Assembly (NCBI RefSeq): GCF_014217565.1 | Contig: NZ_CP043661.1 | Location: 2,666,001-2,730,000 of the forward strand | Reading direction: 5' to 3' | Source of the DNA: Kribbella qitaiheensis | GTDB lineage: Bacteria; Actinomycetota; Actinomycetes; Propionibacteriales; Kribbellaceae | DNA: 64,000 bases | In this document: positions 9,227 through 53,000 of the stretch, piece after piece | How positions within the stretch are numbered: position 1 is the first letter of the stretch | Layout: each line of letters starts with the position of its first letter | The notes under the pieces: model-generated | Seen by the model: the letters and a program-made list of their open reading frames with translations, nothing else | The model's database searches: none | What the model was told of the DNA's origin: nothing | Made by a program: the position numbers and the translations under genes

Positions 9227-9274
9227 TTACGTCCGAAGAGGCGAGGGGCCGGCCCCACAGTTGTTCGGACGCAA
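9227..9274. repeat. Dispersed palindromic element, copy A
   Basis: TTACGTCCGAA opens and TTCGGACGCAA closes this 48-nt element, with an inner palindrome GGGGCCGGCCCC. Other copies are at 9301, 10415, 36284 and 52952. It lies between divergent genes, so it is unlikely to be only a terminator. Confidence 0.85.
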
Positions 9275-9300
9275 GCGGATCTCGACACCGGAAAGGAGCC

Positions 9301-9349
9301 TTACGTCCGAAGAGGCGAGGGGCCAGCCCCACAGGGGTTCGGACGCAAG
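9301..9349. repeat. Dispersed palindromic element, copy B
   Basis: The same TTACGTCCGAA / TTCGGACGCAAG ends enclose a 49-nt copy almost identical to copy A, which sits in direct repeat 27 bases upstream. The inner stem is GGGGC-CA-GCCCC. Confidence 0.85.
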
Positions 9350-9416
9350 CGGTTTTCCACAGGGGGGAAGGGAGGGGCCGGGAAAGGGGAGCAGAGTTGG
9401 CAAGTTCTCCGGTGTG

Positions 9417-10406
9417 GTGAACATCCGGAGAAAGGAAAGCAGATGTCGACGAGGAAATTGGTGCGGGCGATGTGAAACCTGCCGAAGGGCATGCGGGCAG
9501 GAGAAGCGGCGTCGGCAGGCGACGCTCCAAGCCGGTCAGCAAGGCGGCGTCGTCTCACGCGCCCAGCTTTACGGCGCCGGCTGGACCCGCTGGCAGGTGC
9601 ACGCCCAGGTGCTGGCCGGTCGATGGGCGATCAAAGGCCGACAGACCATCGCGGTAACCACTGGCGAACTGCCCGAGGACGGCGAGTGGTGGACGGCCGT
9701 TTTCGAGGTCGGCTCCGGAGCTGCGCTGGACGGCGCCACCGCGCTCAAGGCCCTCGGCCTGAAGGGCTTCGACGGGCCGATCCATATCTCGACCCCCAAG
9801 TCCGCACGACCTCGCCACCCGCGGGGAGTCGTGGTCCACGAGACCAGACGACGCCAGGCCACCGATCTCGCGCTGTCCACTCTTCCCCGGGTGCGGCCGT
9901 CGGTCGCGGCCATCCGGGCAGCCCTCTGGGCCATCAGCGACAAACAAGCCTCGCTGCTACTCGTGATGTCGGTACAACAACGTCTGACAACGCCAGCCCA
10001 CCTCGCCGAGGCATTGATGTCGATCCGGCGACATCGGCGGCGGCGCTTGCTGGATCAGGTGACCAACGAGATCGCCGGCGGAGCACAGTCGACCGGAGAG
10101 ATCGACTTCCTCCGCCTCGGCCAGGAGTATGGCCTGCCCGAACCCGATCGGCAGAGTCGCCGGGTGACGCCCGACGGAATCGCCTTCCTCGATGTGGAAT
10201 GGACGGCGTACGAAGTAGTGGTAGAGATCGAGGGCGTCCATCACCAGGAGGCAGATCGCGCCCTTGCCGATGCACTACGGCAGAACGAACTCACCATCGA
10301 CAGATCGCGCGTGCTGCGGATCCCGGTCGTCGGTCTGCGCACCGACCCCGCCCGCTTTCTCGACCAGGTCGCCCGCCTCCTCCGCTCGCAAGGCTGGCCC
10401 GGCTAA
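9417..10406 (+). CDS. AbiEi-antitoxin-like winged helix plus DUF559-type nuclease domain
   Basis: An N-terminal winged-helix segment (GGVVSRAQLYGAGWTRWQV) resembles the type IV antitoxin AbiEi domain. The C-terminal part (VEWTAYEVVVEIEGVHH and later) resembles the DUF559/Vsr-like endonuclease region. Such proteins are abundant singletons in actinobacteria and usually lack a partner toxin; none is seen here. The start is unclear. The coding frame has no ATG; GTG at 9417 is used by default, and the first 40 codons look non-coding and Cys-rich. A good ribosome site (GGAGAAAGGAAAG) instead precedes ATG 9443 in another frame, which stops after ten codons. A lost or gained base near 9443-9530 is likely. 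Confidence 0.6.
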   Translation: MNIRRKESRCRRGNWCGRCETCRRACGQEKRRRQATLQAGQQGGVVSRAQLYGAGWTRWQVHAQVLAGRWAIKGRQTIAVTTGELPEDGEWWTAVFEVGSGAALDGATALKALGLKGFDGPIHISTPKSARPRHPRGVVVHETRRRQATDLALSTLPRVRPSVAAIRAALWAISDKQASLLLVMSVQQRLTTPAHLAEALMSIRRHRRRRLLDQVTNEIAGGAQSTGEIDFLRLGQEYGLPEPDRQSRRVTPDGIAFLDVEWTAYEVVVEIEGVHHQEADRALADALRQNELTIDRSRVLRIPVVGLRTDPARFLDQVARLLRSQGWPG

Positions 10407-10414
10407 CCCCCAGC

Positions 10415-10466
10415 GCTAACGTCCGAACACCAGTGGGGCAGGCCCCACTGGTGTTCGGACGTTAGC
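10415..10466. repeat. Dispersed palindromic element, copy C (perfect 25-bp hairpin)
   Basis: Arms of 25 bases at 10415-10439 and 10442-10466 are exact inverted repeats around a two-base centre. The outer ends are the family sequence TAACGTCCGAA / TTCGGACGTTA. It lies between convergent genes and could end transcription from both sides. Confidence 0.9.
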
Positions 10467-10481
10467 GGGGAGAGAGGGGGG

Positions 10482-11180
10482 TCAGTACCAGTTCTTGGCC
10501 TTGGAGTGGGACCAGGCTGCGCAGGGGGAGCCGTAGGCGTCCTCGATGTAGTCGAGGCCCCACTTGATCTGGACGACCGGGTTGGTGCGCCAGTCGGAGC
10601 CGTAGGCCGCCATTCGATTGCCAGGCAGTGCCTGCGGGATGCCGAACGCCGAGGAGGTCGGGTTGTCCGCGTTCACCTTCCAGCGGGACTCCTTGGTCCA
10701 CAGGCTGTCCAGGCAGCTGAACTGGCTCGCCTTCCAGCCGTGGTCCGCGAGCAGGTTCATCGCGACCTCCTTCGGCGTACCGGAGATCTTCTTCCGCTCG
10801 GCGTCGCGGCTGGCGCGCTCGTCGCGGGACTTGCCGTCGGTCTTCTGCAGCGCCTTGTACCGGGCCAGGGCGGCGTTCTTCGCCTTGCGCCGGAGCGCTG
10901 CCTGGTCCTGCATCGCCTTGCGGGCGGACTCGACCGCCTCGATCTGGTTCCGGAGCCGGACGATCTCCTGGCTCTGCTCCTCGACACTGAGCGGCTTGGC
11001 CGACGGTGACTTCGCGGCCTTCGCCTTCTCGCTGTTCAGCACGGCGAGTTCGGCGCGGCCGGACACCGGGTCCGACGCGGTACTGCTCCCGGGGGAGCTG
11101 AAGAGATCGAGACCTGCGACAACCGAGACGACGACGATCCCACTCACTGCGAGGATCGCGACGGAGCGCTTCGCTTTCAT
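10482..11180 (-). CDS. Secreted lytic transglycosylase-like protein
   Basis: The 232-residue product has an N-terminal signal or anchor helix (residues 6-25), an extended helical coiled-coil region with Lys/Arg/Ala repeats (about 40-140) and a C-terminal SLT/lysozyme-like domain. The last domain shows the pattern of actinobacterial transglycosylases: LDSLWTKESRWKVNADN with the catalytic Glu, SSAFGIPQ, and a final GLDYIEDAYGSPCAAW. It should cleave peptidoglycan in the cell wall during growth. It sits alone, read opposite to the AbiEi-like gene. A c-di-AMP riboswitch would be expected for some relatives, but the leader is too short for one here. Confidence 0.82.
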   Translation of the reverse strand: MKAKRSVAILAVSGIVVVSVVAGLDLFSSPGSSTASDPVSGRAELAVLNSEKAKAAKSPSAKPLSVEEQSQEIVRLRNQIEAVESARKAMQDQAALRRKAKNAALARYKALQKTDGKSRDERASRDAERKKISGTPKEVAMNLLADHGWKASQFSCLDSLWTKESRWKVNADNPTSSAFGIPQALPGNRMAAYGSDWRTNPVVQIKWGLDYIEDAYGSPCAAWSHSKAKNWY

Positions 11181-11270
11181 CTGTCCTTCCGATTACCCGA
11201 CCCCCGTCGGCTGCAACAGGAACATACTCTGGCCTAAACACACTGTGATCACAAGCAGGTCACAATGAAC

Positions 11271-11299
11271 GGTGCGGCCACATCGCGTGTGGCCGCACC
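11271..11299 (-). terminator. Hairpin downstream of the transglycosylase start and phoH end
   Basis: A 12-bp perfect stem (GGTGCGGCCACA / TGTGGCCGCACC) with a 5-nt loop lies about 60 bases beyond the phoH stop. It has no strong T-run and is best read as the phoH terminator or a transcription barrier before the next minus-strand gene. Confidence 0.65.
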
Positions 11300-11357
11300 G
11301 GGTACCGCGAAAGTCTTACTTTTCCTTTACAGATTCAAGCTCAGTACAGAACTGCTC

Positions 11358-12695
11358 TCACAGCTGCACGTCCTCCAGCATCTCGGTGACCAGCGCCGCG
11401 ATCGGCGACCGCTCACTGCGGGTCAGCGTCACGTGGGCGAACAGCGGGTGCCCCTTCAGCTTCTCCACCACCGCGACGACGCCGTCGTGCCTACCGACCC
11501 GGAGGTTGTCGCGCTGGGCGACATCGTGGGTGAGTACCACCCGCGAGTTCGCCCCGATCCGGGACAGCACGGTCAGCAGCACGTTGCGCTCCAGCGACTG
11601 GGCCTCGTCCACGATCACGAACGCGTCGTGCAGCGAGCGGCCGCGGATGTGGGTCAGCGGCATCACTTCGAGCATGCCGCGGTCCATCACCTCGTCGATC
11701 ACGTCGCTGCTGGTCAGCGCGCCGAGCGTGTCGTGCACGGCCTGGGCCCAGGGCGCCATCTTCTCCGACTCCGACCCCGGCAGGTAGCCGAGCTCCTGGC
11801 CGCCGACCGCGAACAGCGGCCGGAAGACGACGACCTTCTTGTGCTGCCGGCGCTCCATCACCGCTTCGAGCCCGGCGCACAAGGCCAACGCGGACTTACC
11901 GGTACCGGCGCGGCCGCCGAGCGAGATGATCCCGACGTCGGGATCCAGCAGCAGGTCCAGCGCGACCCGCTGCTCGGCGGACCGGCCGCGGAGCCCGAAG
12001 GCCTCCCGGTCGCCCCGGACCAGTCTGATCCGCTTGTCCGGCATCACCCGGCCGAGCGCGCTGCCGCGTTCCGACAGCAGCACCAGCCCGGTGTGGGTCG
12101 GGAAGTCCCGGCCCTCGGGGATATCGAGCACGCCGTCCTCGTACAAGGAGTCGACGTCGCTGGTCGGTACCTCCAGCTCGGCCATCCCCGTCCAGCCGGA
12201 CGACTCCAGCGCGAGCTCCGCGCGGTACTCCTCGGCCGCCAGCCCACAGGCAGACGCCTTGACCCGCATCGGCAGGTCCTTGGAGACCAGCGTGACGTCG
12301 CGGCCCTCCGCCTTGTAGTTGCAGGCGACCGCGAGGATCCGGCTGTCGTTGTCACCGAGCCGGAAACCGGCCGGCAGGCCGTTCGGGTCGGTGTGATTGA
12401 GCTCGACCCGGATTGTTCCACCCTTCTCCCCCACTGGCAGGGGCGCGTCCAACCGTCCGTGCTTGATCCGGAGCTCGTCCATCAGGCGCAATGCGGTACG
12501 AGCGAAGTAGCCGAGCTCAGGATGATGCCGTTTTGCCTCCAGTTCGGTGACTACGACTACCGGGATGACCACCTCGTGCTCGTCGAACCGCGTCATCGCA
12601 TGCGGGTCCGACAGAAGCACGGAGGTGTCCAGCACAAAAGTGCGCTGGTCCGGCGTGGATGAGGTGTTTGACGCCTTGGCGTGGGTGGCAGCCAT
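11358..12695 (-). CDS. phoH: PIN-PhoH ATPase
   Basis: This 445-residue protein joins an N-terminal PIN nuclease domain (FVLDTSVLL from residue 20; acidic residues Asp23, Glu51 and a late GDNDSR motif) to a PhoH ATPase. The ATPase has Walker A GRAGTGKS at about 261-268 and an IVDEAQ Walker B. This is the PhoH2 architecture, described in mycobacteria as an RNA-unwinding ribonuclease acting with an antitoxin-like PhoAT; no PhoAT is apparent here. I use ATG 12695, which has a GAGAGG site upstream; the longer reading to 12740 lacks one. It is monocistronic. Confidence 0.9.
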
Positions 12696-13094
12696 GTCGC
12701 ACGTCCTCTCGGACCGCAGCGTGCACCACGCCCGGTCCACCAGTGGTTAGGTGTTGGACCGGGTCCGGACCCGGAGGTCTGGTGCAGACCCCCTCCGTCG
12801 CGCAGCACACACGCGACCGGAAATCAGCGACTCCGAGACCGTGGGTCTCGGGCACTCCGTTCGGCCCCTCATGGGGCTACCGGCGAGCAGTAAAGTCTCA
12901 TCTGATCGGGCCTCCCGGACGACCGGCTTCCCCTCCGACCGTCACTAGTGAGAGTAGGTCGGTCCGGCAAAGCCCGCAGCCCGACACGCCAGCCCGCGGG
13001 GTTAACACCGTGTTACGCCCTTCCCTCCCGCGAGGGACGACGTTCGGTCAGCGGAGTGAGCCGGTACTGCGGGCCGCTGCGACACCCTGATCGC
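12696..13094. other. Intergenic region between divergent phoH and membrane-protein genes
   Basis: No gene is supported in these 399 bases. Two dyads stand out: CCGAGACC-GTG-GGTCTCGG (12833-12851), a short hairpin, and TAACAC-C-GTGTTA (13003-13015), a perfect 6-1-6 palindrome about 80 bases before the membrane-protein start. Both promoters must lie here. The palindrome is a plausible operator, but I cannot name the regulator. Confidence 0.6.
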
Positions 13095-14336
13095 ATGCCC
13101 ACAGCAACACTCCGCGCTGTAATCACCCGACTCCGCATACGACCCGGCTACGCGGCAGCCGCCTGGTCCCTGGCGTACGGCGTACTCGGTGTCTACTGGT
13201 CCGCAGGCGGCGCCGGCTACCCGTTCGCCAAGCTTGACGACGACCACTCGACCGCCTCACTACTTGAAGGCACGCCTGTTCAGGTCGTGGGGCCTGCAAT
13301 CGCCGTAGTCGCGCTCCTGGGCGCAGTAGTGGCTCTGGTGATGACGCTCAGGCAGACGCGGAGCCGCGTGCTTGAGGTGTTCGCCGTCGCGCTGGCTGTC
13401 GTATTGGCGCTGCTGATCCCCGACTACACCCTGCTGGCGATGATCGCCCTGTCCCCTGCACTGCTCGTGTTCGCCTTCACCGGCATCCCCGGGCCGCAGG
13501 ACGGCATCGGCGACGTCCTGTACTGGCACCGGGTGAACCTCATCCTGATGTTCGTCGGCGGCCTGCTCTGGGCCGCCACAGCGCTGGCGTACCACCGTCG
13601 GGCGCGCGACCTCTGCCTGAGCTGCGGACGCGGCGACGGCCCTGAGAAGGCCTGGCAAACTCCCGAGGGCGCCCTGCGCTGGGGACGCCGCGCAGTGCTG
13701 GTCGCAGTCGTCTCCAACATCCCGTACGAGTTCACCCGCATCGCCTGGTACTTCGGCTGGCCGCTGGGCATCACCGACGAGTTCGAGCAGATGATGAAGG
13801 ACACGCCGTACATGCTCGAGCTGGCGCTCGTGATGGCGGTGATGGGCATCGGCGGCAGCATCCTGACCCATGGCCTGGTGCACCGTTGGGGCGAGGTCTA
13901 TCCGCGCTGGATCTGGTTCAAGGCGGGCAAGCGGATCCCGCCTGCGCTGGCGATCGTGCCGGCTGCGCTGGTGGCCGTAGTACTGGTTCCAGCGGGCCTG
14001 ATGAACATCCGGCTGCAGGGCGACGAGGCAGACGCCGGGTGGGGCCTGGTGTTGCCCGGCACCCTCTGGGTGGTCTGGGGTGCAGCGCTGGGCGCGGCCG
14101 CCTACGCCTACTACCTGCGACGCCGTACTACGTGTCGCCGGTGCGGCCGCGGCTCGCCTGCGCCCGCAGTACTCAGGTCCCGAAGCGACGCTCGCGCTGG
14201 GCGTAGTTCCGGATCGCTCGGAGAAAGTCCACGTGCCGGAAGTCCGGCCAGAGCGCCTCGCAGAAGTAGAACTCGCTCAGCGCGCTCTGCCAGAGCAGGA
14301 AGCCGCCGAGCCGCTGCTCCCCCGACGTACGGATGA
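13095..14336 (+). CDS. Polytopic membrane protein with an antisense-overlapping tail
   Basis: About eight predicted transmembrane helices fill residues 15-350. Two short Cys pairs (LCLSCGRG and CRRCGRG) flank cytoplasmic loops and look like rudimentary zinc ribbons. I do not recognise the family. The frame does not stop at the end of the last helix but runs on 50-60 residues, Arg/Ser-rich and probably non-functional, which are antisense to the last 164 bases of uppS. A lost stop codon or a small indel near 14160 would explain this tail. The start is ATG 13095 by position. Confidence 0.65.
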   Translation: MPTATLRAVITRLRIRPGYAAAAWSLAYGVLGVYWSAGGAGYPFAKLDDDHSTASLLEGTPVQVVGPAIAVVALLGAVVALVMTLRQTRSRVLEVFAVALAVVLALLIPDYTLLAMIALSPALLVFAFTGIPGPQDGIGDVLYWHRVNLILMFVGGLLWAATALAYHRRARDLCLSCGRGDGPEKAWQTPEGALRWGRRAVLVAVVSNIPYEFTRIAWYFGWPLGITDEFEQMMKDTPYMLELALVMAVMGIGGSILTHGLVHRWGEVYPRWIWFKAGKRIPPALAIVPAALVAVVLVPAGLMNIRLQGDEADAGWGLVLPGTLWVVWGAALGAAAYAYYLRRRTTCRRCGRGSPAPAVLRSRSDARAGRSSGSLGESPRAGSPARAPRRSRTRSARSARAGSRRAAAPPTYG

Positions 14337-14952
14337 CCAGGTCCGGGTCCGGCTGGCCCTTGGTGTACAGGTGTTCGGCGATGTGCTCGACGTCGACCCG
14401 CTCGGCCAGTTCCTCGATCGAGATGCCCTTGGCGGCCTCCTCGAGCAGCAGCGAGCGAACCGCGTCGGCCAGCTCGCGGCGGCCGCCGTACCCGACTGCC
14501 ACGTTGACGATCATGCCCTGCACGATCTGGGTGGCCGCCTCGGCGCCCTTGAGTACTTCGGCGGTCGCGCCGGGCAGCAGGTCGAGCGCGCCGACCGGGT
14601 GGATCCGCCAGCGGCCGATCGAGGTGAGCTCCTCGACCGTCTGCTCGATGATCCGCAGCAGCGGCTCCAGCTCCTCGGCGGGCCGGCTCAGGTTGTCCGT
14701 CGACAGCATCCAGACGGTGACCACCTTGACGCCGACCTCGTCGCACCAGCCGAGGAACTCGGTGATCTTGTTCGCCCCGGCCTCGTGGCCGCGCGACACC
14801 GGATCACCGGTGGCTCTGGCCCAGCGCCGGTTGCCGTCGATGATGACGCCGATATGGCGTGGCATCCGGTCCGGCGAGAGGGATTTCGCCAGCCGGCGCT
14901 CGTACAGTCCGTACACCGCGCTGCGCAGCTTTTGCTTGCCAGGTGTCCGCAT
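14173..14952 (-). CDS. uppS: Isoprenyl transferase (short-chain cis-prenyl type)
   Basis: The 259-residue cytosolic or membrane-associated enzyme joins isopentenyl diphosphate units in cis. The catalytic Asp39 lies in IIDGNRRWA, and the SGEQRLGGFLLWQS and SEFYFCEALWPDF motifs are present. By length and context it resembles the actinobacterial Z,E-farnesyl or decaprenyl diphosphate synthases that make lipid carriers for wall assembly. The start is ATG 14952. Its 3' end is overlapped by the tail of the convergent membrane-protein gene. A typical PhoH-UppS-hemolysin III neighbourhood is seen in other actinobacteria (general knowledge). Confidence 0.9.
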   Translation of the reverse strand: MRTPGKQKLRSAVYGLYERRLAKSLSPDRMPRHIGVIIDGNRRWARATGDPVSRGHEAGANKITEFLGWCDEVGVKVVTVWMLSTDNLSRPAEELEPLLRIIEQTVEELTSIGRWRIHPVGALDLLPGATAEVLKGAEAATQIVQGMIVNVAVGYGGRRELADAVRSLLLEEAAKGISIEELAERVDVEHIAEHLYTKGQPDPDLVIRTSGEQRLGGFLLWQSALSEFYFCEALWPDFRHVDFLRAIRNYAQRERRFGT

Positions 14953-15122
14953 GGGCAGATGATCTCCTTGGATGCTCGCCTACGAGGCTAACCGACAAAC
15001 GGCCGCTTGAGAGGTGCCGGAACCGACATCGAACTTTCGCCGGAGTTCGTTCGTCGGACACTCCGGGCAGACGTGCTGTGGCGGTGATCTGGCCTACATT
15101 TCATCCTTAGGACCCATTGGAC

Positions 15123-15152
15123 TTACGGGACCGTAGGTTACGGTTGCGTAGG
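15123..15152. promoter_or_regulatory. Two 15-bp direct repeats upstream of the hemolysin III gene
   Basis: TTACGGGACCGTAGG (15123-15137) is followed directly by TTACGGTTGCGTAGG (15138-15152), identical at 12 of 15 positions. They lie 32 bases before the start at 15184, a place where a regulator or activator would bind. The first unit is also an imperfect inverted repeat (TACGG-N2-CCGTA). Confidence 0.6.
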
Positions 15153-15183
15153 TAAGCTTTCGCCCACTCTCGAGAGGATGGCG

Positions 15184-15891
15184 ATGACGGCCAAGACCGC
15201 CACCAGCGACACCACCTCCCCCGAAGCAGGCCATCGCTTGTCCGGCGCCCTCGCGCCGTTGAAGCCGAAACTGCGCGGCTGGCTGCACGCCGGCACCTTC
15301 CCGTTCGCCACCGCGGCCGGGATCGTGCTGATCTGCCTGGCGCCGACCACAAGCGCGCGCTGGGCCGCGGCCGTCTACACGCTGGGCTCGATGCTGCTGT
15401 TCGGCATCTCGGCGCTCTACCACCGGTTCTACTGGGGCCCGACCGGCGAGGCGATCCTGCGCCGCCTCGACCACAGCAACATCTTCCTGCTGATCGCCGG
15501 CACCTACACCCCGCTGGGGATGGTGCTGCTGCGCGGCAACGACCGGATCCTGCTGCTCAGCCTGGCCTGGGGCGGCGCCCTGATCGGCATCCTGTTCCGG
15601 ATCTTCTGGGTCGGCGCGCCCCGCTGGCTCTACACGCCGATCTACCTGGCCCTCGGCTGGGTGGCGATCTTCTGGATGGACGACTTCTACCACCTGGGCG
15701 GCGCGGCGGTGGTCACGCTGCTCGCGATCGGCGGCGGGCTGTACTCGATCGGCGCGGTCGTCTACGGCATCAAGCGGCCGAACCCGTCACCGCTGTGGTT
15801 CGGCTTCCACGAGATCTTCCACGCCTGCACCGTGGCTGCCTTCATCTGCCACTACATCGCCGTCAGCATCGCCACCTACCGCGCCGGCTAA
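15184..15891 (+). CDS. Hemolysin III / PAQR-family membrane protein
   Basis: The 235-residue protein has seven predicted transmembrane helices and the family residues SALYHRFYW, the DHSNIF motif near the middle and a final FHACTVAAFICHY with conserved His. Hemolysin III proteins are zinc-site membrane hydrolase-like proteins; the direct reaction in bacteria is uncertain. I choose ATG 15184 because GAGAGG lies six bases before it; the ATG at 15178 would leave only one base of spacing. Its stop TAA overlaps the convergent MarR stop within CTAA. Confidence 0.85.
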   Translation: MTAKTATSDTTSPEAGHRLSGALAPLKPKLRGWLHAGTFPFATAAGIVLICLAPTTSARWAAAVYTLGSMLLFGISALYHRFYWGPTGEAILRRLDHSNIFLLIAGTYTPLGMVLLRGNDRILLLSLAWGGALIGILFRIFWVGAPRWLYTPIYLALGWVAIFWMDDFYHLGGAAVVTLLAIGGGLYSIGAVVYGIKRPNPSPLWFGFHEIFHACTVAAFICHYIAVSIATYRAG

Positions 15892-16379
15892 TCCCGCTCC
15901 AGCCACTCCAGCTCATCGGTGAAGGGCTGGCACAGCTCGAGCAGCATTCCCCGGAGCAGCTCGTAGCGTTCCGGCCCCAACTGCTCTTTCCACGCCTGCT
16001 CGACCCGTCCGATCGCGGCGTGACTGAAGGCGACCGCCTCGTCGCCCTTGCCCGTACGCCGTACCAACCGGACCCGGCGATCCTCGGGCAACCGGTCCGA
16101 CTCCGTGAAGCCGAGCTTGTCCAGATAATCCACGTGCTGGCCGAGACCCTGTTTCGTCATCCCCGCGATCTCGGCCAGGTCGGTGATCCGCGCCCCCGAG
16201 TCCGGGATCAGCTCCAGCAACCGGTAGTGCGACACCCGTAGGTCGGGGAACCCCCGCTCGGAGTCGATCTCGATCTCCGCCCGGAGTCGCTTCAGGGCGA
16301 GACCGAACAGGCCGGCTATGTGCAGCCCGCGCTCCACCGGAGGTCGCGGGCTGCCCGAGAGGGCGTTGACGGAAGTCAT
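15888..16379 (-). CDS. MarR-family regulator
   Basis: The 163-residue protein has the winged helix of MarR regulators: SGARITDLAEIAGMTKQGLG for the recognition helix and LPEDRRVRLVRRTGKG for the wing. It should bind a palindrome as a dimer. A near-perfect candidate operator lies directly upstream of its start at 16389-16406, so self-control is likely. Effector ligand and other targets are unknown. The divergent neighbour is an APH-like kinase, and the convergent one is the hemolysin III gene. Confidence 0.85.
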   Translation of the reverse strand: MTSVNALSGSPRPPVERGLHIAGLFGLALKRLRAEIEIDSERGFPDLRVSHYRLLELIPDSGARITDLAEIAGMTKQGLGQHVDYLDKLGFTESDRLPEDRRVRLVRRTGKGDEAVAFSHAAIGRVEQAWKEQLGPERYELLRGMLLELCQPFTDELEWLERD

Positions 16380-16388
16380 AAGGCAACT

Positions 16389-16406
16389 TTACTATCAAGA
16401 TGGTAA
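16389..16406. promoter_or_regulatory. MarR operator candidate
   Basis: TTACTATC-AA-GATGGTAA is a dyad with 7 of 8 arm positions matched, 10-27 bases upstream of the MarR start. It would block transcription of the marR gene itself and may also act on the divergent gene 120 bases away. Confidence 0.6.
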
Positions 16407-16525
16407 GGCTGCTTTACTTCTTCGGCGAGGCGGGGCCTGACAGCGATCGCAAGGCGGGGATCTGAAGGCTGGCTGAAGGGTGTGGCGGCAGCATCAAGGA
16501 AATGACGTCCACCCCGGGGGAAACC

Positions 16526-17713
16526 ATGAACAGCACCGCAAGCCTGACCGAGACGCTCGCGCCGCTCGGCCGGGACGCACTGGGCGAGCAGGAGTTCAGC
16601 CAACTAGTCGAGAGCATCACCGGACAGCCCGGCGCCCGGCCGACGGCGGTCCGGGTGGAGCCGGTCGACTACCTGATCGGTACGCCGAGCACCGCGGAGC
16701 TGCTCCGGCTGCTCGGTACGGCGGCTCTGCCCAACGGTGACGAGGTCAAGTGGTCCTGCTTCATCAAGAAGCTCCAGTCGGTCCGGCACTGGCCGCTGAT
16801 CCACCTCATCCCGGAGCCGGTCCGCCAGGACTTCATCGACAACATGCCCTGGCAGCTCGAGGTCGCGGTCCATCGCAGCGACATCGCGGGCATCCTTCCC
16901 GACGGGCTTCGGCTGCCGACGGCGTACCGGATCGACGAGCACGAGGACGATCGGGCCGTGCTGTGGATGGAGAACGTGGATCAGGCACCTGGCTGCTGGC
17001 CGATGGAGCGGTTCGAGCGCGCGGCGTACCTGCTGGGCAGGTTGTCCGCCCGGCGGCAGACTCACCTGGTGGAGCCGTTCCGGCGGGGCGGGTACGGCGA
17101 GACGGCGGGGATCGGGCTGCGCTACTACACAACCGGCCGGGTGCAGCTGGCCGCGTTGCCGGGACTGGCCGATGATCAGACCTGGCGGCATCCGATGCTC
17201 GCCTCAGCGGTCTGCAACGCCGGCGACCACGGGCTGAGGGACGAACTGCTCGAGCTCGGCGCCCGGCTGCCCGCAGTACTGGATGCCCTTGACGCGTTGC
17301 CGCAGACCTATCAGCACGGGGACGCGAGTCCGCAGAACCTGCTGGTGCCGAAGGACAACGAGAACGAGTTCGTGGTGATCGACTGGGGTTTCGACTGCCC
17401 GCAGGCGGTCGGATTCGACCTTGGTCAGCTACTGATCGGATTGGCGCACGCGGGCGAACTGTCGGCGGACGCGTTGCCGGCCGTCCACCGGACCATCGTC
17501 CCGGCGTTCATGGAGGGATTGGCCGCCGAGGGGATGATCGTGCCCGAGGAACAGGTGCGCTACGGCTACCTGGGTTCGTTGCTGTGCCGGGCGGCCTTCA
17601 CTGCCTTGCCGTTGGAGTTGTTCGGCAAGAACGACGCCGCCACCGAGAGCCTCTTCTACGAACGCGTCCGGCTCACCCGAGCCATCGTCGACCTGGTGAA
17701 AGAGATCATCTAG
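16526..17713 (+). CDS. Aminoglycoside phosphotransferase (APH)-fold kinase
   Basis: The 395-residue protein shows the APH/choline kinase active site: catalytic HGDASPQNLL and metal-binding VIDWGFD. Such proteins phosphorylate small molecules or antibiotics; there is no resistance signature to assign aminoglycoside modification. The N-terminal lobe has an FIKKLQS lysine. I choose ATG 16526 with CGGGGGA upstream; ATG 16502 is eight codons longer. Its stop region overlaps the end of the convergent Ddn-like gene. Confidence 0.75.
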   Translation: MNSTASLTETLAPLGRDALGEQEFSQLVESITGQPGARPTAVRVEPVDYLIGTPSTAELLRLLGTAALPNGDEVKWSCFIKKLQSVRHWPLIHLIPEPVRQDFIDNMPWQLEVAVHRSDIAGILPDGLRLPTAYRIDEHEDDRAVLWMENVDQAPGCWPMERFERAAYLLGRLSARRQTHLVEPFRRGGYGETAGIGLRYYTTGRVQLAALPGLADDQTWRHPMLASAVCNAGDHGLRDELLELGARLPAVLDALDALPQTYQHGDASPQNLLVPKDNENEFVVIDWGFDCPQAVGFDLGQLLIGLAHAGELSADALPAVHRTIVPAFMEGLAAEGMIVPEEQVRYGYLGSLLCRAAFTALPLELFGKNDAATESLFYERVRLTRAIVDLVKEII

Positions 17714-18179: not shown

Positions 18180-18208
18180 CGAAGGATCCCATCACCCCCA
18201 GCAAGGGT

Positions 18209-36214: not shown

Positions 36215-36283
36215 GCCTCCACTTCAGCACCCGGACGGGTCCAAACCAATCGGGGATCGCCCGGAACTCTCCCGTCCCACCCC

Positions 36284-36331
36284 TTACGTCCGAAAAACCG
36301 GAGGGACGTCTACTCCACTTCTTCGGACGTA
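36284..36331. repeat. Dispersed palindromic element, copy D
   Basis: TTACGTCCGAA opens and TTCGGACGTA closes this 48-nt copy. The inner part is more diverged than in copies A and B, which suggests an older copy. It lies between the DUF4097 start and the MFS end. Confidence 0.8.
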
Positions 36332-36489
36332 GGGAGGCGGCACAGACCTCACCCACACAGCAGTGCGGGTCACGGCGGAGTAGCCCGTGACCCGCACTGC
36401 GCCCCTGAACCGCAGGTTCGCTATGACTTCCCGGCTCCCCCCGGAACCGGTGTTTCATGCCTTCCCGGCTCCCCCCGGAGCCGGGGTTT

Positions 36490-44979: not shown

Positions 44980-44996
44980 TTGCGTGTATCACGCAA
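44980..44996. promoter_or_regulatory. Perfect palindrome upstream of marR-MFS operon
   Basis: TTGCGTG-TAT-CACGCAA is a perfect 7-3-7 dyad overlapping a likely -35. TATATG (45002-45007) is the matching -10, nine bases before the ATG at 45016, so the mRNA should be leaderless. This fits auto-repression by the MarR protein. Confidence 0.7.
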
Positions 44997-45015
44997 CCAT
45001 GTATATGCTTGCACC

Positions 45016-45552: not shown

Positions 45553-47168
45553 GCACCACCGAGCCGGCTACGACTGGCGGCGCGTCCGCTGCGCCTGATT
45601 CAAATGCACCGAACTACCTTTCCCATCGACAGATCCTGGTCATCCTCGGTGGCCTGATGGCCGGCATGTTCCTGGCCGCACTCGACCAGAGCATCGTCGG
45701 TACGGCGCTGCCGCAGATCGTCAGTGAGTTCAACAGCCTGGACAAGCTGTCCTGGGTGGTCACCGCGTACCTGCTGACGTCGACCGCCTCCACTCCGCTG
45801 TGGGGCAAGATCTCCGACCTGTACGGCCGCCGCCCGCTGTTCATCGCGGCGATCGTCACCTTCCTGGCCGGCTCCGTGCTGGCCGCGCTGTCGCAGAACA
45901 TCGAGCAGCTGATCGGCTTCCGGGCCGTCCAGGGTCTCGGTGCCGGTGGCCTGATGTCGCTCGCGTTCGCCACCATCGGCGACGTGATCCCGCCGCGTGA
46001 GCGCGGCAAGTACATGGGGTACTTCGGTGCCGTCTTCGGCCTCTCCTCGGTAGCCGGCCCGCTGCTCGGCGGTCTGCTCACCGACGGTCCCGGCTGGCGC
46101 TGGATCTTCTGGATCAACCTGCCGATCGGCCTGGCCGCGCTGGGCATCGTGGGCGCCGTACTCAAGCTCCCGCACGTGAAGCGCAGCCACAAGATCGACT
46201 ACCTGGGTGCCGCGATCGTCACCGGTGCCGTCACCGCGCTGCTGCTCGCCGTCTCCTGGAGCGGTCCGACCAACGGCTGGGGCAACGGAACCACGCTCGC
46301 CCTGCTGATCGGCGCCGTCGTACTGGCTGTCGCCTTCGTCCTGGTCGAGCTGCGCGTCTCCGAGCCGATCATCCCGATGGACCTGTTCAAGGGCCGGATC
46401 TTCTCCGGCTACGCGGGCTTCGCCTTCCTGCTCGGCTTCGCGATGTTCGGTGCGCTGATCTTCCTGCCGCTCTACCTGCAGGCGGTCAAGGACCTCTCCC
46501 CGACCCGGTCGGGCCTGGCCCTGCTGCCGATGATCGTCGGCATCTTCTGCGCCTCGATCCCGAGCGGTCAGCTGATGAGCAAGACCGGCCGCTACAAGAT
46601 CTACCCGATCATCTCGGCGATCCTGGTCAGCGGCGCGATGGTGCTGCTGTCGACGATCGGCCTGAACACGCCGTACTGGCATCTGGCGATCTATATGTTC
46701 ATCATGGGCTCCGGCCTGGGCCTGTCGATGCAGATCACCGTGACCGCGGCGCAGAACAGCGTGCCCCGGCAGCACATGGGGACCGCGACCTCGACGATGA
46801 CCTTCTTCCGCTCGATGGGTGGCGCGGTCGGTACGGCCGTGTACGGCGCGGTGCTGACCAGCCGCTTGAAGGTGCACCTGGGCGACATCGTCCCGGCGAC
46901 GATGCAGAACATGGTCGAGCCGCTGACCAAGGCCGCGAACAGCGTGCAGGCGCTGCACGGTCTGAAGGATCCGATGAAGGGCTGGGCGCTGTCCGGTCTG
47001 GTCAACGCGATGGACGACGTGTTCCTGGTCTCGCTGCCGTTCCTGGCGATCGCCCTGGTACTGGCGATCATCACCCCGGAGCAGCGGCTGGCCGGCCGCA
47101 ACGACGGCCCCAAGACCGAGGCCGACGCGAACGCCGAACTGGAAGCAGCAGCCGCCTCGATGGGCTGA
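45549..47168 (+). CDS. MFS DHA2-type multidrug exporter (EmrB/QacA-like)
   Basis: The 539-residue protein has 14 predicted transmembrane helices with the DHA2 motif LAALDQSIVGTALPQIV in helix 1 and the loop after helix 2 LWGKISDLYGRRPLF. It should pump cationic or amphipathic drugs by proton antiport. It is translationally coupled to the MarR gene and followed by a strong terminator at 47183. Confidence 0.92.
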   Translation: MSTTEPATTGGASAAPDSNAPNYLSHRQILVILGGLMAGMFLAALDQSIVGTALPQIVSEFNSLDKLSWVVTAYLLTSTASTPLWGKISDLYGRRPLFIAAIVTFLAGSVLAALSQNIEQLIGFRAVQGLGAGGLMSLAFATIGDVIPPRERGKYMGYFGAVFGLSSVAGPLLGGLLTDGPGWRWIFWINLPIGLAALGIVGAVLKLPHVKRSHKIDYLGAAIVTGAVTALLLAVSWSGPTNGWGNGTTLALLIGAVVLAVAFVLVELRVSEPIIPMDLFKGRIFSGYAGFAFLLGFAMFGALIFLPLYLQAVKDLSPTRSGLALLPMIVGIFCASIPSGQLMSKTGRYKIYPIISAILVSGAMVLLSTIGLNTPYWHLAIYMFIMGSGLGLSMQITVTAAQNSVPRQHMGTATSTMTFFRSMGGAVGTAVYGAVLTSRLKVHLGDIVPATMQNMVEPLTKAANSVQALHGLKDPMKGWALSGLVNAMDDVFLVSLPFLAIALVLAIITPEQRLAGRNDGPKTEADANAELEAAAASMG

Positions 47169-47182
47169 TCAGCACACAACGA

Positions 47183-47217
47183 ACAGCCGCCCCCGGGATT
47201 GTCCCGGGGGCGGCTGT
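47183..47217. terminator. Strong bidirectional terminator
   Basis: ACAGCCGCCCCCGGGA and TCCCGGGGGCGGCTGT form a 16-bp perfect stem with a TTG loop; CTTTCT follows on the plus strand. It lies between convergent exporter and permease genes. Confidence 0.9.
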
Positions 47218-47221
47218 CTTT

Positions 47222-48523
47222 CTACTCCAAGGCCTCAGCGGCTGGATGTCTTCGGCGTGGCAGCGGTCGCGGTGGTTCCGGATCGACGTCGTTGCCGGCC
47301 AGGTGATTCACGATCGTGTTCAGTACTGCGGCTGTCGGTACTGCGACCAGCGCGCCCACGATCCCCGCGATCACCACGCCGGTGGCGATCGACAGGATCA
47401 CCGCCAGCGGATGGACACTCACCGCCCGGCCGAGCAGGAACGGCTGCAGGACGTGCGCCTCCAGTTGCTGTACGCCGATCACCACGGCCAGCATGATGAT
47501 CGCGACAACCGGGCCCTTGGCAACCAAGGCGACCAGTACTGCGACGATGCCGCTGACGAAGGCACCGACGACCGGGATGAACGCGCCGACGAACACCAGG
47601 ATCCCGATCGCGCTGACCAGCGGCAGGCCGAGGATCGCCGCACCCAGCGAGATCCCGATCGCGTCCACCGCGGCCACGATGATGGTGGCCCGGACGAAGG
47701 CGGTCAGCGAGACCCAGGCCTTCCGCCCGGACGAGTCCGTCTTGCCCCGGGCCTGCCTCGGGAACAGCCTGACCAGCCAGGCCCAGATCTGCTCACCTTG
47801 GTAGAGGAAGAAGAACAAGCAGAACAGCGTGATGAACAGGCCGGCCACGACGTGCGTCGCCGTGGTACCGACTTCTGCTGCTCGTTGGCCGAGCGCTCCA
47901 CCGGACGTCACGGTGTCCTTGAGCTTGTTCAGCGAGTCGGTGATGTCCTTGTCGGTGACGTTGAGGTTGATCTTGGCCAGGTCGCGAAGCTTCGTCACGC
48001 CTTCGCCGATCTGACCCGACAAGGCGTCGAACTGGGTCGCGATCTGCGTGCCTACCAGCGTCAGCAGGCCGGCCACGACGGCGATCGTGCCGATCACGGT
48101 GATCCCGGCCGCCGGTCCGCGCGGCAGCCGCGCCTTGTGCAGGGCGTTCGTCACCGGGACGAGCAGCGCGGTCAGCAGGACGCCGACCGTCACCGGCACC
48201 ACGACCTCGGACAGGTACCGCAGCCCGTAGCCGATGATGAAGACCGCGGCCACGATCACCAGGAACCGCCAGGCCCAGGCGCTCGCGATCTGCATGCCGG
48301 GAGTCACCCCGAGATCCACCGGCCCCCGGCTGGAAGGCGCCACCAGGCGCTGATCCTCAGGCACCTCTGGGACGGTGTCGCTGACCTCCTCGGCCACCTC
48401 GTTGTCCGCGACAGGGCTTTCCTCGTCCCGCCCGACCTCGGGCACGCCGGCAGAGTCGCCCCGCCCAAGATCCGGCACGTCGGCCGAGTCGTCCCGCCCC
48501 ACCGGCTCGTCCGGCTTGTTCAT
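47222..48523 (-). CDS. AI-2E/UPF0118-family permease
   Basis: The 433-residue protein has an acidic N-terminal tail of about 80 residues, then eight predicted helices with the family core LFFFLYQGEQIWAWL and GAFIPVVGAFVSGIVAVLVA. The family includes TqsA (autoinducer-2) and CadC-like antiporters, so the substrate cannot be set by homology. AGGAGGTGTC lies directly upstream of ATG 48523. Confidence 0.83.
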   Translation of the reverse strand: MNKPDEPVGRDDSADVPDLGRGDSAGVPEVGRDEESPVADNEVAEEVSDTVPEVPEDQRLVAPSSRGPVDLGVTPGMQIASAWAWRFLVIVAAVFIIGYGLRYLSEVVVPVTVGVLLTALLVPVTNALHKARLPRGPAAGITVIGTIAVVAGLLTLVGTQIATQFDALSGQIGEGVTKLRDLAKINLNVTDKDITDSLNKLKDTVTSGGALGQRAAEVGTTATHVVAGLFITLFCLFFFLYQGEQIWAWLVRLFPRQARGKTDSSGRKAWVSLTAFVRATIIVAAVDAIGISLGAAILGLPLVSAIGILVFVGAFIPVVGAFVSGIVAVLVALVAKGPVVAIIMLAVVIGVQQLEAHVLQPFLLGRAVSVHPLAVILSIATGVVIAGIVGALVAVPTAAVLNTIVNHLAGNDVDPEPPRPLPRRRHPAAEALE

Positions 48524-48553
48524 GACACCTCCTGGTCTCAAGTTCTGCTGAGA

Positions 48554-49936
48554 CTAGTGCCCGCTCCGAACGGTTCCATGAATGTCGGAGCCCACTCGCC
48601 GGGCGAGGCCCTCCGCGGCGACCGGGGCAACGTCCGCGAGTAGCCCGACACCGGCCAGGACATAGTCCGTGTCGACGCAGGTCCTGGCGCCCGAAGGAAC
48701 CAGCCAACCTTCCTCCTGGGCACCGGCCGCGACTGCTCCGAGCACCCGCGCGGCGAGCTCGGGACCGTTGTGCCGCAACACTCCCCCGGACCCGACCAGC
48801 AGGTCCACCTCGCGCAGGTCCTTCCCGGACCGCTCGATCACCCGCCCGCCCGGCCCGAACACCACCCGCTGCCGGCCTGCATGCCGCCGCAACGCCACCG
48901 TCACGGCCACACGCGCCAGCGTCTCGTCGTACGACGTCTCCTCGGCCGAACCGGGCAAGTAGGCCGGATCGTCATGCCGCCGCGTCGCCGCGTCGCGCAG
49001 TACCGGGTCGTCGGGGATCAATCCAGCTTCGATGCCTGCGGCAACAACCGGTACTGCGCTCCAGCGCATCCCGAGGTCGCCTTCGACGGTCCGGGTCACC
49101 GGATGCGTGGCCACCACCTCACGACCGAGGTTCGCGTCTTCCGGGTCGAGCTCGATCACCGAATGCACGTCGGTCGTCGCCCCGCCGATGTCGACCACGG
49201 CCACATCCCCGTGCAGCGACGCGAGCACCTCGACACCCCGCAGTACGACGTCCGGCGTGGCCGCGCGAACCATCCGGGCGAACCCGGGATCGCGGGACAG
49301 GTTCTTGCCGCCGATCACATGGGCCAGGAACATCTCCCGGATCGCGGCTCGCGCGCTGTCCGGCGCGAACACCCCGATCTCCGGTACGACGTTGTCCGCG
49401 AAGACATGCGGCACCGCGGCGCCGGTCAGCAACGAGCCGATCACGCCCTTCGCCTCGAGGTTGCCAGCAGCAACCACCGGCTTACGCCATTTGTACTTCG
49501 CCAGCACAGCCGCCGCGTTCTCCAGTACGGCGGAGTTGCCGCCGTCCGTGCCGCCGAGCAACAGCACGACATCGGGACGCTCGGCACGCAGCGCCTTCAA
49601 GGACGTCGGCGTCAGTCCACCGTTGACCACGGCAACTACTCGGCCACCACTCGACAACGCGACCCGGCGACCAGCTTCAGCCGTGACGAGCTCTTCGTTG
49701 CCGACGACACCGATCCGCAGTCCGCCACCCGCGCTCGAACACGCGAGCACCTCGGCCTTGGCGATTCCCTTGTCGACCGCGAGCAACGCGGTACGGCAGG
49801 CTTCGTAGCCGTCCAGCACGTCGGTGTCGATCGTGGTGCGATGTTCGGCCCGGGCGATCAACTCGCCCGAGCCGGCATCCACCGCGATCGCCTTCGTGAA
49901 GGTCGACCCGAAGTCGACCGCCACAAAGGACTGCAT
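48554..49936 (-). CDS. MutL/GlmL-family reactivating protein
   Basis: The 460-residue protein has an actin-like ATPase fold starting VAVDFGSTFTKAIAVD and containing VVDIGGATTDVHSV. MutL/GlmL proteins reactivate the B12-dependent glutamate mutase by removing inactive cobalamin. No mutase subunits are in the window, so the partner enzyme is elsewhere or the family has another role here. The gene is close to the metB gene in the same direction. Confidence 0.82.
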   Translation of the reverse strand: MQSFVAVDFGSTFTKAIAVDAGSGELIARAEHRTTIDTDVLDGYEACRTALLAVDKGIAKAEVLACSSAGGGLRIGVVGNEELVTAEAGRRVALSSGGRVVAVVNGGLTPTSLKALRAERPDVVLLLGGTDGGNSAVLENAAAVLAKYKWRKPVVAAGNLEAKGVIGSLLTGAAVPHVFADNVVPEIGVFAPDSARAAIREMFLAHVIGGKNLSRDPGFARMVRAATPDVVLRGVEVLASLHGDVAVVDIGGATTDVHSVIELDPEDANLGREVVATHPVTRTVEGDLGMRWSAVPVVAAGIEAGLIPDDPVLRDAATRRHDDPAYLPGSAEETSYDETLARVAVTVALRRHAGRQRVVFGPGGRVIERSGKDLREVDLLVGSGGVLRHNGPELAARVLGAVAAGAQEEGWLVPSGARTCVDTDYVLAGVGLLADVAPVAAEGLARRVGSDIHGTVRSGH

Positions 49937-49974
49937 CAGTACCCTCCGTGGGAGGTTGCCGGAGCGGAGCGCAC

Positions 49975-51129
49975 TTACGCCATCGCGCGGTCGAGGTCCG
50001 CGAGGAGGTCGTCGATCGTCTCGATACCGACGCTGAGCCGGATCAGGTCCGCCGGAACCTCCAGCGGGGTGCCCGCGACCGAGGCGTGCGTCATCTTGCC
50101 CGGGTGCTCGATCAGCGACTCGACGCCGCCGAGCGACTCACCCAGCGTGAACACCTCGGCCTTGTTGCAGATGTCGAGCGCGTGCTGCTCGCCGCCCGTC
50201 ACCCGGAACGACACGATCCCGCCGAAGCGCTTCATCTGCTTCGCCGCGGTCTCGTGGCCGGGGTGGCCGTCGACGCCCGGGTAGAGCACCGAGGTGACGC
50301 CCTTGTGCCGCTGCAGGAACTCGACGACCTTCTCGGCGTTGTCGCTGTGGCGGTCCATCCGGACGCCCAGGGTCTTGATGCCACGCAGTACCAGCCAGGC
50401 GTCGAACGGGCCGGCGACGGCGCCGATCGCGTTCTGGTGGAAGGCGATCTTCTCGATCAGTTCGGCGTCGCGGACGATCAGCGCGCCACCGACGACGTCC
50501 GAGTGACCACCCATGTACTTCGTGGTCGAGTGCACCACCACGTCGGCGCCGAGCTCGAGCGGCTGCTGCAGGTACGGCGAGGCGAAGGTGTTGTCCACCA
50601 CCAGCAGCGCACCCGCATCGTGGGCGATCTGCGCCACGATGGCAATGTCGGCCACGTTCAGCAGCGGGTTGGTCGGCGTCTCCAGCCAGACGACCTTCGT
50701 CTTGCCCGGGCGGATCGCGGCCCGGATCGCCTCCGGGTTGGTGACGGCCGCCGGGGTCATCTCGACACCCCAGGTGCCCAGGACCTTGGCGAAGAGGCGG
50801 AACGTGCCGCCGTACGCGTCGTCGGGGAAGACCACGTGGTCACCCGGCACGCAGAGCGAGCGGATCAGGGTGTCTTCGGCGGCCAGGCCGCTCGCGAACG
50901 CGAACCCTCTGGTGCCCGCTTCGATCGCGGCCAGACACTCCTCGAGCGCGCTCCGGGTCGGGTTCGCCGACCGGGAGTACTCGTAGCCGTTACGCAGCCC
51001 GCCGACGCCGTCCTGCTTGTACGTGCTGGTCGCGTAGATCGGCGGAACCACCGAGCCGGTGGTCGGGTCGGGCTCGTTCCCGGCATGAATGGCGAGCGTT
51101 TCGAATCCGTAGGAGTGTTCGTAGGTCAC
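49975..51129 (-). CDS. metB: Cystathionine gamma-synthase / homocysteine-forming PLP enzyme
   Basis: The 384-residue PLP enzyme belongs to the Cys/Met metabolism family. The Schiff-base lysine is in HSTTKYMGGHSD, and the catalytic surroundings YSRSANPTRSALE and GHETAAKQMKRFGG are typical. It joins an activated homoserine to cysteine; the choice between O-succinyl and O-acetyl homoserine and between MetB and O-acetylhomoserine sulfhydrylase cannot be settled from sequence alone. GTG 51129 is the start, about 110 bases from the divergent unknown gene. Confidence 0.87.
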   Translation of the reverse strand: MTYEHSYGFETLAIHAGNEPDPTTGSVVPPIYATSTYKQDGVGGLRNGYEYSRSANPTRSALEECLAAIEAGTRGFAFASGLAAEDTLIRSLCVPGDHVVFPDDAYGGTFRLFAKVLGTWGVEMTPAAVTNPEAIRAAIRPGKTKVVWLETPTNPLLNVADIAIVAQIAHDAGALLVVDNTFASPYLQQPLELGADVVVHSTTKYMGGHSDVVGGALIVRDAELIEKIAFHQNAIGAVAGPFDAWLVLRGIKTLGVRMDRHSDNAEKVVEFLQRHKGVTSVLYPGVDGHPGHETAAKQMKRFGGIVSFRVTGGEQHALDICNKAEVFTLGESLGGVESLIEHPGKMTHASVAGTPLEVPADLIRLSVGIETIDDLLADLDRAMA

Positions 51130-51245
51130 CGGACCAGCGTACGGCCTGGTCTGATGACCCCGATCCGGGCCTACCGTTCTGTGGACAGCTGTCATGGACC
51201 GGTGTCCGTGGCCCCGTGTTGCTCGAGGAAAAGGTTCAAGCGCGG

Positions 51246-51830
51246 ATGAAGACGCAGGACAGGTCGCTCGACGACGACGCCCTCGCGATGGCCGATCTGG
51301 CGGAAGTTCCGGACTGGACCGCTGTGGCCGGGCCGGACGCGGACCAGACCGGCGAAGCGGTGGTCAGAGCGCTGGTGCAACGAGTCATGGCCGCCACCGG
51401 TTGGCAGCCCTGGCCGCTCGAGCAGGGCGAGAAGATCGGCGACGAATCCGCCTCCTGGGGGTTCACCACCCGGCGCGGCATCACGATGATCGTGTTCGAC
51501 GGCCTCGCGTTCGCCGACGTACGGACCAGCGGCTGGTCGGCGTACCAGATCGGCCCGGACGACATCGCCGAGGCCGAGGCCGGGCTCGACGCGCACTGGC
51601 CGGAGCATCTCGAGCTGGCGATCAAGACCTGGGGCGAACCGGCGTACGTCGGGCAGTCGTCGGGTAACCCGGCGTTCCTGGACGAATGGGGTCCCGGGGC
51701 CGGCGCGGATCGGCTGCATCTGGCCGTGTGGGTCCGGCCGGGCGCTCAGATCCAGCTCTTCAGCGACATGCCGACACGGGATCCTTTGACCCCGTCGGTC
51801 GGCGTCAACTACGCGGTCTACCTCGACTAG
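51246..51830 (+). CDS. Conserved hypothetical protein
   Basis: The 194-residue protein is soluble and acidic with Trp- and Gly-rich blocks (ASWGFTTRRGITMIVFDGLAF, HLAVWVRPGAQIQLFSD). I do not recognise a family. ATG 51246 is used; TTG 51216 would add ten residues. It is followed after eight bases by a Gln/Gly/Ala-rich protein gene, so both are probably one operon. Confidence 0.55.
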   Translation: MKTQDRSLDDDALAMADLAEVPDWTAVAGPDADQTGEAVVRALVQRVMAATGWQPWPLEQGEKIGDESASWGFTTRRGITMIVFDGLAFADVRTSGWSAYQIGPDDIAEAEAGLDAHWPEHLELAIKTWGEPAYVGQSSGNPAFLDEWGPGAGADRLHLAVWVRPGAQIQLFSDMPTRDPLTPSVGVNYAVYLD

Positions 51831-51838
51831 GAGTTCTG

Positions 51839-52900
51839 ATGACGACACCACACCAGGGCCCGGGCATGTGGCAGCAGGGCAACCGTGATCAGGCGCTCGA
51901 CTGGCTGGCCAACCTCGATCCGCGTCAGCAGCAGGCGCTGCAGCGCTCGATCCAGACCCACCAGGCACTCGGGCCGATCTACAACGCGACCAACCGCGTC
52001 ATCCAGACCGCCCAGCGGACGGCAGCGCGACTGAGCGACTACGCGCAGCGGCTGGCCAGCAGCGCGCAGGTGAACCGGGCGGTGGAGTTCGGTCAAAATG
52101 TGGCGGCGCAGGCGACCGAGCTCGGGCAGCGCGGCCGGGACAACGTCACCGAGGCGGTCGGGCGGACCACCGCGGCTGTGACGAATGCGGGGAACCGGGC
52201 GATCGACGGAGCGACGGCCGCCGGGCGCGGGATCGCCGATGGAGCGACAGCCGCAGGTCGTGGGCTGGCCACTGCCGGCCGCCAGGTGGCCGCGACCGGT
52301 CGACAGGCCGTCGAGGCGGGACAGAACGCGGTGGGCAAGGTGTCGCGCTGGTTCAAGGAGAAGCAGTCCAACACCTCTGTCCGGGCCAACGCGGCGCGGG
52401 CGGCGTTCCAGGCGTTCCGGACCGACCCTGCGCTGCAGCAGACGGTCAGCCCCAAGGACGTGAAGGTGCTGAGCGAGCAGGCTGCTGCGATCGGTACCGC
52501 GAAGAACTGGGAGGAGCTGAACGCGGCCATCCAGCAGTTCGGCCAGTCAGCCGATCAGCGCCTCGGCGTACCGAGCCAGAACGCCCAGGGTGCGAATGCC
52601 CAGGGCACGGACGGCCAGAGTGCGAACGCTCAGAGCACGGCGACTCAGGGCACGGCGACTCAGGGCACGAGCGGTCAGGGCACGAGCGGCCAGGGCACGA
52701 GCGGCCAGGCGAGTGCTGCTGAGAAGGCCAGCAATCCGGCCTGGGCATTGCAGGGCACCACCGACCCCCGCGGCGCGCTCACCCAGAACGTGGGCGGACA
52801 GGCGCCCGGCGGGCAGGCAGCAGGCGGGCAAGGCCAGCAGGGCGAGGCCGCCAAGACGACCGGCGGCAAACACCGCTCCGGTCCGGAAACCGAGCGCTGA
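51839..52900 (+). CDS. Ala/Gln-rich helical protein with low-complexity tail
   Basis: The 353-residue protein has helical segments with DRAWLANLDPRQQQALQ-like content, a long Ala/Arg/Gln-rich region with heptad character (about 40-160) and a Gly/Gln/Thr-rich repetitive tail (about 240-340). It shows no membrane helix. AGGAG precedes ATG 51839 by six bases. The composition resembles the Gln-rich protein encoded at 57296. No known domain is recognisable. Confidence 0.5.
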   Translation: MTTPHQGPGMWQQGNRDQALDWLANLDPRQQQALQRSIQTHQALGPIYNATNRVIQTAQRTAARLSDYAQRLASSAQVNRAVEFGQNVAAQATELGQRGRDNVTEAVGRTTAAVTNAGNRAIDGATAAGRGIADGATAAGRGLATAGRQVAATGRQAVEAGQNAVGKVSRWFKEKQSNTSVRANAARAAFQAFRTDPALQQTVSPKDVKVLSEQAAAIGTAKNWEELNAAIQQFGQSADQRLGVPSQNAQGANAQGTDGQSANAQSTATQGTATQGTSGQGTSGQGTSGQASAAEKASNPAWALQGTTDPRGALTQNVGGQAPGGQAAGGQGQQGEAAKTTGGKHRSGPETER

Positions 52901-52909
52901 TCAACTGAC

Positions 52910-52949
52910 AGCGGGAGCCCGATCCACCCCTGCGGACCGGGCTCCCGCT
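52910..52949 (+). terminator. Terminator after the Ala/Gln-rich protein gene
   Basis: AGCGGGAGCCCG and CGGGCTCCCGCT form a 12-bp stem with a 16-nt loop, then TTCTT. It is followed directly by dispersed palindromic element E. Confidence 0.75.
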
Positions 52950-52951
52950 TC

Positions 52952-53000
52952 TTACGTCCGAAGAGGTGTGGGGCGCGGCCCTCAGTTCTTCGGACGCAAG
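52952..53000. repeat. Dispersed palindromic element, copy E
   Basis: TTACGTCCGAA opens and TTCGGACGCAAG closes this 49-nt copy, which lies between convergent genes, directly after the terminator. The inner part is diverged from A and B. Confidence 0.85.

Follow-up and report, generated by a model that had tools for sequence, protein, structure and literature searches.

Dispersed palindromes served by a dedicated enzyme are known chiefly through RAYTs. In such a system, the REPtron (a RAYT, or TnpA-REP, together with its REP or REPIN elements), the palindromes framing the enzyme gene are dispersed as well. They lie at the 3′ ends of genes, form tandem pairs and occur in lineage-specific numbers, and each gene lineage has one cognate palindrome; the enzyme is a HuH Y1 transposase. 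Another kind of REP, tagged with CGTC, is described as having no dedicated transposase (PMC3733652), and its CGTC is an unpaired tag on a stem of 8-9 bp. Two further systems resemble the present one in their proteins. AbiEi proteins of the AbiE type IV toxin-antitoxin system autoregulate via inverted repeats upstream of their own gene, and AbiEi binds two 23-bp inverted repeats placed 3 bp apart, 49 bp in total (PMC7319586). For the EDxHD (Vsr-like) homing endonuclease I-Bth0305I, dimerisation on a target of nearly 60 bp has been reported (PMC3943268).

The present locus lies in a 64,000-nucleotide stretch of the Kribbella qitaiheensis genome, the whole of which is called the window. Its palindromes frame a gene and also occur dispersed; they vary from one paralog lineage to another and have been gained recently. 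All the REPtron traits listed above are shared, whereas the enzyme here is a predicted AbiEi-like/EDxHD-like nuclease, the palindromes are 44-52 bp long with long fixed arms, a DnaA-box-like site is present, and a RAYT is absent. An unpaired GTAG or CGTC tag is absent from the palindrome ends; both arms are paired and symmetrical, with the ends CTTRCGTCCGAA/TTCGGACGYAAG. The genome has no Y1 transposase and the palindromes have no unpaired tag; the system works like RAYT-REP but lacks these two tested defining features of it and is not assigned to that class. Like the CGTC-tagged REPs, these are dispersed palindromes without a RAYT, and several arms contain CGTC, but in these the CGTC is part of a paired arm within a dyad of approximately 50 bp. 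AbiEi, the best structural match, also has inverted half-sites of approximately 23 bp upstream of its own gene; unlike AbiEi, the present protein is fused to a predicted nuclease part, and its sites are found downstream and dispersed too. I-Bth0305I may have a similar catalytic fold (a weak match), whereas the protein here has another DNA-binding part, a free-standing gene, and multi-copy palindromic sites. No open-access PMC paper was found that connects palindromes with DUF559 or AbiEi fusions, and the elements apparently form a so far undescribed equivalent of the REPs known from other bacteria. They are probably dispersed non-autonomous copies of a nuclease-linked REP-like element, with an enzyme superfamily different from that of RAYTs.

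Five palindromes and a predicted nuclease gene in the window

The original prediction placed five palindromic copies with common ends in the window, and all five were found there. The features of the window are as follows.

9226..9275 (core 9228-9273), no strand assigned: palindrome copy 1, CTTACGTCCGAA..TTCGGACGCAAG, 46-bp subtype, the outer copy upstream of the nuclease gene
9300..9349 (core 9302-9347), no strand assigned: palindrome copy 2, the inner copy upstream of the nuclease gene
9354..9363, + strand: DnaA-box-like site TTTTCCACAG, between the upstream palindrome and the nuclease gene
9417..10406, + strand: predicted nuclease gene, 329 aa, with an inferred GTG start
10416..10465 (core 10418-10463), no strand assigned: palindrome copy 3, CTAACGTCCGAA..TTCGGACGTTAG, framing the nuclease gene downstream
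36283..36333 (core 36285-36331), no strand assigned: palindrome copy 4, 47-bp subtype, a dispersed copy
52951..53000 (core 52953-52998), no strand assigned: palindrome copy 5, 46-bp subtype

The five copies share the core TACGTCCGAA..TTCGGACGYA. Four of them have TTACGTCCGAA, while the 10.4-kb copy has TAACGTCCGAA together with a compensating TTCGGACGTTA on the opposite side. Copies 1 and 2 are in tandem with a step of 74 bp, the outer stem of copy 3 extends further outward, and copy 5 lies between the convergent predicted genes 51839-52900(+) and 53002-53577(-). Single-arm matches in the window outside the five copies are all mismatched, and their count is at the chance level.

Three of the five copies frame the gene at 9417-10406. 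Thus, a candidate for the mover, which was supposed to be perhaps encoded elsewhere, sits inside the window. The predicted protein has a Cys-rich N-terminus, an AbiEi-like winged-helix part, and a C-terminal DUF559/EDxHD-like (Vsr-like) nuclease part. E228, D259, E270, H276, D285, R288, and N290 are invariant in an alignment of 23 sequences. The AbiEi-like DNA-binding fold was found by PADLOC for the window protein (AbiEi, 3.6e-6), by AbiEi_4 matches in 13 of the 23 family members, and by Foldseek, where the best structural match of the AF2 model (pLDDT 88) is AbiEi 6y8q (E 7e-4); the best profile matches of the family are also AbiEi. The C-terminal part appears to be DUF559/EDxHD-like, from sequence and fold evidence that is weak singly: the Pfam DUF559 match of the window protein is below the cutoff (E 0.027), and the Foldseek matches to 3r3p, the catalytic domain of the EDxHD homing endonuclease I-Bth0305I (E 0.028), and to 3hrl (ngo0050; E 0.079) are weak. 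Of 54 homolog loci, 44 have a DnaA-box-like match resembling TTNTCCACAG ahead of the gene, usually in the interval separating the gene from its upstream palindrome. In the own genome, such a site is near only 1 of 125 palindromes, the one belonging to the nuclease gene itself.

Number, placement and gain of the palindromes in the genome

How common is the palindrome outside the window? A search of the 8,156,807-base genome for the ends revealed 129 strict copies, whereas the reversed pattern, used as a control, gave none. Thus, copies outside the window are not few, and the family is larger than first proposed. The copies have a rigid core of 46 or 47 bp, CGTCCGAA-N26/27-TTCGGACG. Base-by-base examination of 2.06 Mb gave 125 copies; up to three mismatches across both nine-base arms were allowed, and more decayed copies escape detection. 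In these copies, CGTCCGAA and TTCGGACG are separated by 26 nt (about 91 copies), 27 nt (30 copies), or 28 nt. The arms are near-invariant, the eight-base arms varying in only 5 of the 125 copies, while the interior is variable but retains the pattern GWGGG..CCCWC, with covariation that is modest.

Placement was scored with a simple purpose-written gene caller. Fifty-five of the 125 copies lie between convergent genes, 50 between co-directional genes, and 9 between divergent genes; the others are within a predicted gene (9), overlapping a predicted gene (1), or at the edge (1). Convergent regions are enriched (odds ratio 5.6, p 1e-15; against random regions 4.8, p 4e-9), and the copies come after the nearest stop codon at a median distance of 8 nt. 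The mixture of convergent, divergent, and co-directional positions that the original prediction reported is real for the window, but the family as a whole is strongly biased to the 3′ ends of genes. Because of this strong preference, placement is no argument against a role as terminators, and the claim drawn from it that the copies are "not just terminators" fails.

Selection might then have multiplied the copies as terminators or as hairpins at mRNA ends, their association with the nuclease being incidental. The convergent and 3′-end bias fits this, as does the unrelated hairpin that relatives frequently have at the corresponding site. On the other hand, the arms are near-invariant in a sequence-specific manner, a T-tract is absent at the copies, and a bias of G-U over A-C on the transcribed strand is also absent (GU 34 and AC 45 in the co-directional copies), on which grounds selection at the RNA level was rejected. 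Many orthologous sites are, moreover, empty in relatives, as described below. The lineage-specific gain and the lack of both a T-tract and a G-U over A-C bias argue against plain terminators, and this explanation is quite improbable.

It was also assessed whether a RAYT or a conventional IS moves the elements, which would make them of the REP/REPIN or MITE kind. They are REP-like in their size and palindromy, in lying at 3′ ends, in forming tandem pairs, and in varying in copy number (PMC3733652), but PF01797 (RAYT/Y1) has 0 matches in the own genome, where the same search detects it in 5 of 14 controls, and there is no GTAG tag. Concerning an IS with matching ends, unpaired arms number 19 of 264 in the 2.06 Mb examined (of 8.16 Mb), where approximately 31 are expected, and thus are not in excess. 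Furthermore, no consistent target-site duplication was found, the flanking direct repeats being similar to those of shuffled pairings with few longer ones. A RAYT/Y1 mover was therefore rejected for the absence of PF01797 from the genome, and a conventional IS or MITE appears very unlikely from the unpaired arms of the 2.06 Mb and from the lack of consistent target duplications; there is hardly any likelihood left for this explanation. What stands of the predicted REP/REPIN- or MITE-like family moved by an enzyme is that the elements are dispersed, REP-like, apparently mobile, and associated with an enzyme; the RAYT is absent. A DNA-uptake-type signal was rejected as well, since single arms are not in excess in the 2.06 Mb.

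Are the copies old or new? G008, which is one of the two nearest relatives used for comparison, lacks the element at 32 of 34 orthologous sites; of the other two, one has the element and one a decayed copy. Thus, the family disperses. In G025, outside the gene locus, 9 of 26 orthologous sites have the element and 17 are empty. The sites of the 47-bp subtype are empty at 7 of 7 (G008) and 5 of 5 (G025). These copies have been gained recently and in a lineage-specific manner. At two sites of the own genome (G000; 851936 and 3888052), a relative also has a copy, whose interior differs as though a replacement had occurred. The loci L159 and L161, and the G025 site that matches 4519783 of the own genome, lack the family and have long inverted repeats of other kinds or stretches that are repeated (e.g. 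GTTAACCCCTCAGGTGGTGGGT); these are possibly another repeat family. On several contigs of G015, the palindromes often form head-to-tail runs of up to 4 copies with a step of approximately 62 bp.

The gene and its palindromes in close relatives

A palindrome is present on both flanks of the gene in 8 of 8 intact close orthologs of the genus, all of which are at one locus. The gene and the palindromes occur together at this locus in G025, G033, G007, G012, G026, G016, and G015 (at a contig end), while the gene-less relatives whose site was examined have neither. In the species with a gene remnant (G018, G020, and G036), the elements are also worn or partly lost. Copies occur in all 8 genomes with an intact gene, and none in 15 of the 27 gene-less genomes (Fisher p 0.006; this and the other genome-count p-values ignore the relatedness of species and are guides only). 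The linkage between the nuclease and the palindromes is well supported. Twelve genomes of the genus without the close gene hold 1-40 strict copies. Thus, the gene is dispensable for the persistence of the copies, which may be leftovers or may be served by another nuclease in these genomes.

Inside the arms, the left and right framing copies of the same species are more alike (0.81) than the copies at the same framing site of different species (0.54-0.56; permutation p 5e-5), which points to homogenisation of the copies. I infer that the nuclease is what binds and cuts the palindromes and causes them to spread. The full unit would consist of one or more palindromes, the DnaA-box-like site, the AbiEi-like/EDxHD-like nuclease gene, and a further palindrome. 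Two protein monomers would bind the two half-sites of approximately 23 bp in a palindrome; the elements measure 46-52 bp, to be set beside the 49 bp of the AbiEi site. The nuclease may then cut the palindrome itself, its immediate surroundings, or the target DNA, and repair of the break may copy the palindrome of approximately 50 bp to new sites and also convert existing copies toward a single sequence. The surviving insertions would be those just past stop codons, where harm is least and where they may act as bidirectional hairpins.

Alternatively, the gene may encode an autoregulated defence or self/non-self nuclease, for which the gene-side palindromes are operators and the dispersed copies are binding sites beneficial to the host. 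Such copies would be self marks, decoys, or regulated sites, spread by unrelated recombination. The known autoregulation of AbiEi proteins via repeats upstream of their own gene, the AbiEi proteins as best profile matches, and the near-invariant arms with a variable interior are in line with this, but the palindromes are downstream of the gene too, the dispersed copies follow stop codons rather than lying in promoters, the DnaA-box-like site occurs only with the gene's own copy, and gain and loss are fast and lineage-specific. It is an unlikely explanation, although a less remote one than that of terminators.

Paralogs with palindromes of their own

The gene family was found in 216 of the 248 genomes searched within the order. 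Paralogs at approximately 26-35% identity have different palindromes, which often match on both sides of the gene. Outside the genus, in other families, 20 of 23 loci have an arm of at least 7 nt that is common to both flanks; in the first set from the genus, 15 of 26 loci do, compared with 1 of 678 ordinary genes in the control. The 20 of 23 loci also count against an incidental association of the nuclease with terminator hairpins. Two arm sequences were chosen solely from the flanks of paralogs and then searched in genomes, the reversed controls being 0. The first, TTGGGGAGGAT..ATCCTCCCCAA, has 1-14 copies in 12 of 38 genomes of the genus and 0 in the remaining 26. The second, CGTCATACG..CGTATGACG, has up to 28 copies; 16 of the 20 genomes that bear the gene have it, and so do 0 of the 5 that were chosen for having no gene match (four genomes) or a marginal one (G222, E 5.5e-4) (Fisher p 0.002, kinship ignored).

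These dispersed palindromes of one actinobacterial order are thus linked to a nuclease that is not a RAYT, and the linking arm sequence is readable directly from the gene flanks. As the nuclease gene family is common in the order, many unexplained palindromes there may be assignable. The system may even represent a new class of selfish elements, a suggestion I make with some reserve, in which a nuclease spreads and homogenises palindromes of approximately 50 bp by break-driven copying, possibly coupled to the binding of the replication initiator, and each nuclease lineage evolves its own palindrome.

For one paralog of the own genome, L309, no dispersed copies of its palindrome were found in the 2.06 Mb examined. 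This counts against spread by the nuclease, as does the lack of a consistent target-site duplication that would mark how insertion takes place. Another, L320 (G000 4848939-4849829), bears its own palindrome, GGGGGTT..AACCCCC; there are 4 matches to this pattern elsewhere in the 2.06 Mb, two of which have a similar interior. Three protein queries found no homologs in plasmid records, and profile A2 found no confirmed homologs in IMG/VR contigs. With the window protein as the query, phage records gave one match, on the unverified scaffold MT837139.1. This scaffold, recorded as "Bacteriophage sp." and obtained from human faeces, codes for a relative with 44% identity (L340; MT837139.1 1137-7051), whose gene is framed by CGGTGATGCA..TGCATCACCG palindromes and has a TTGTCCACAG site.
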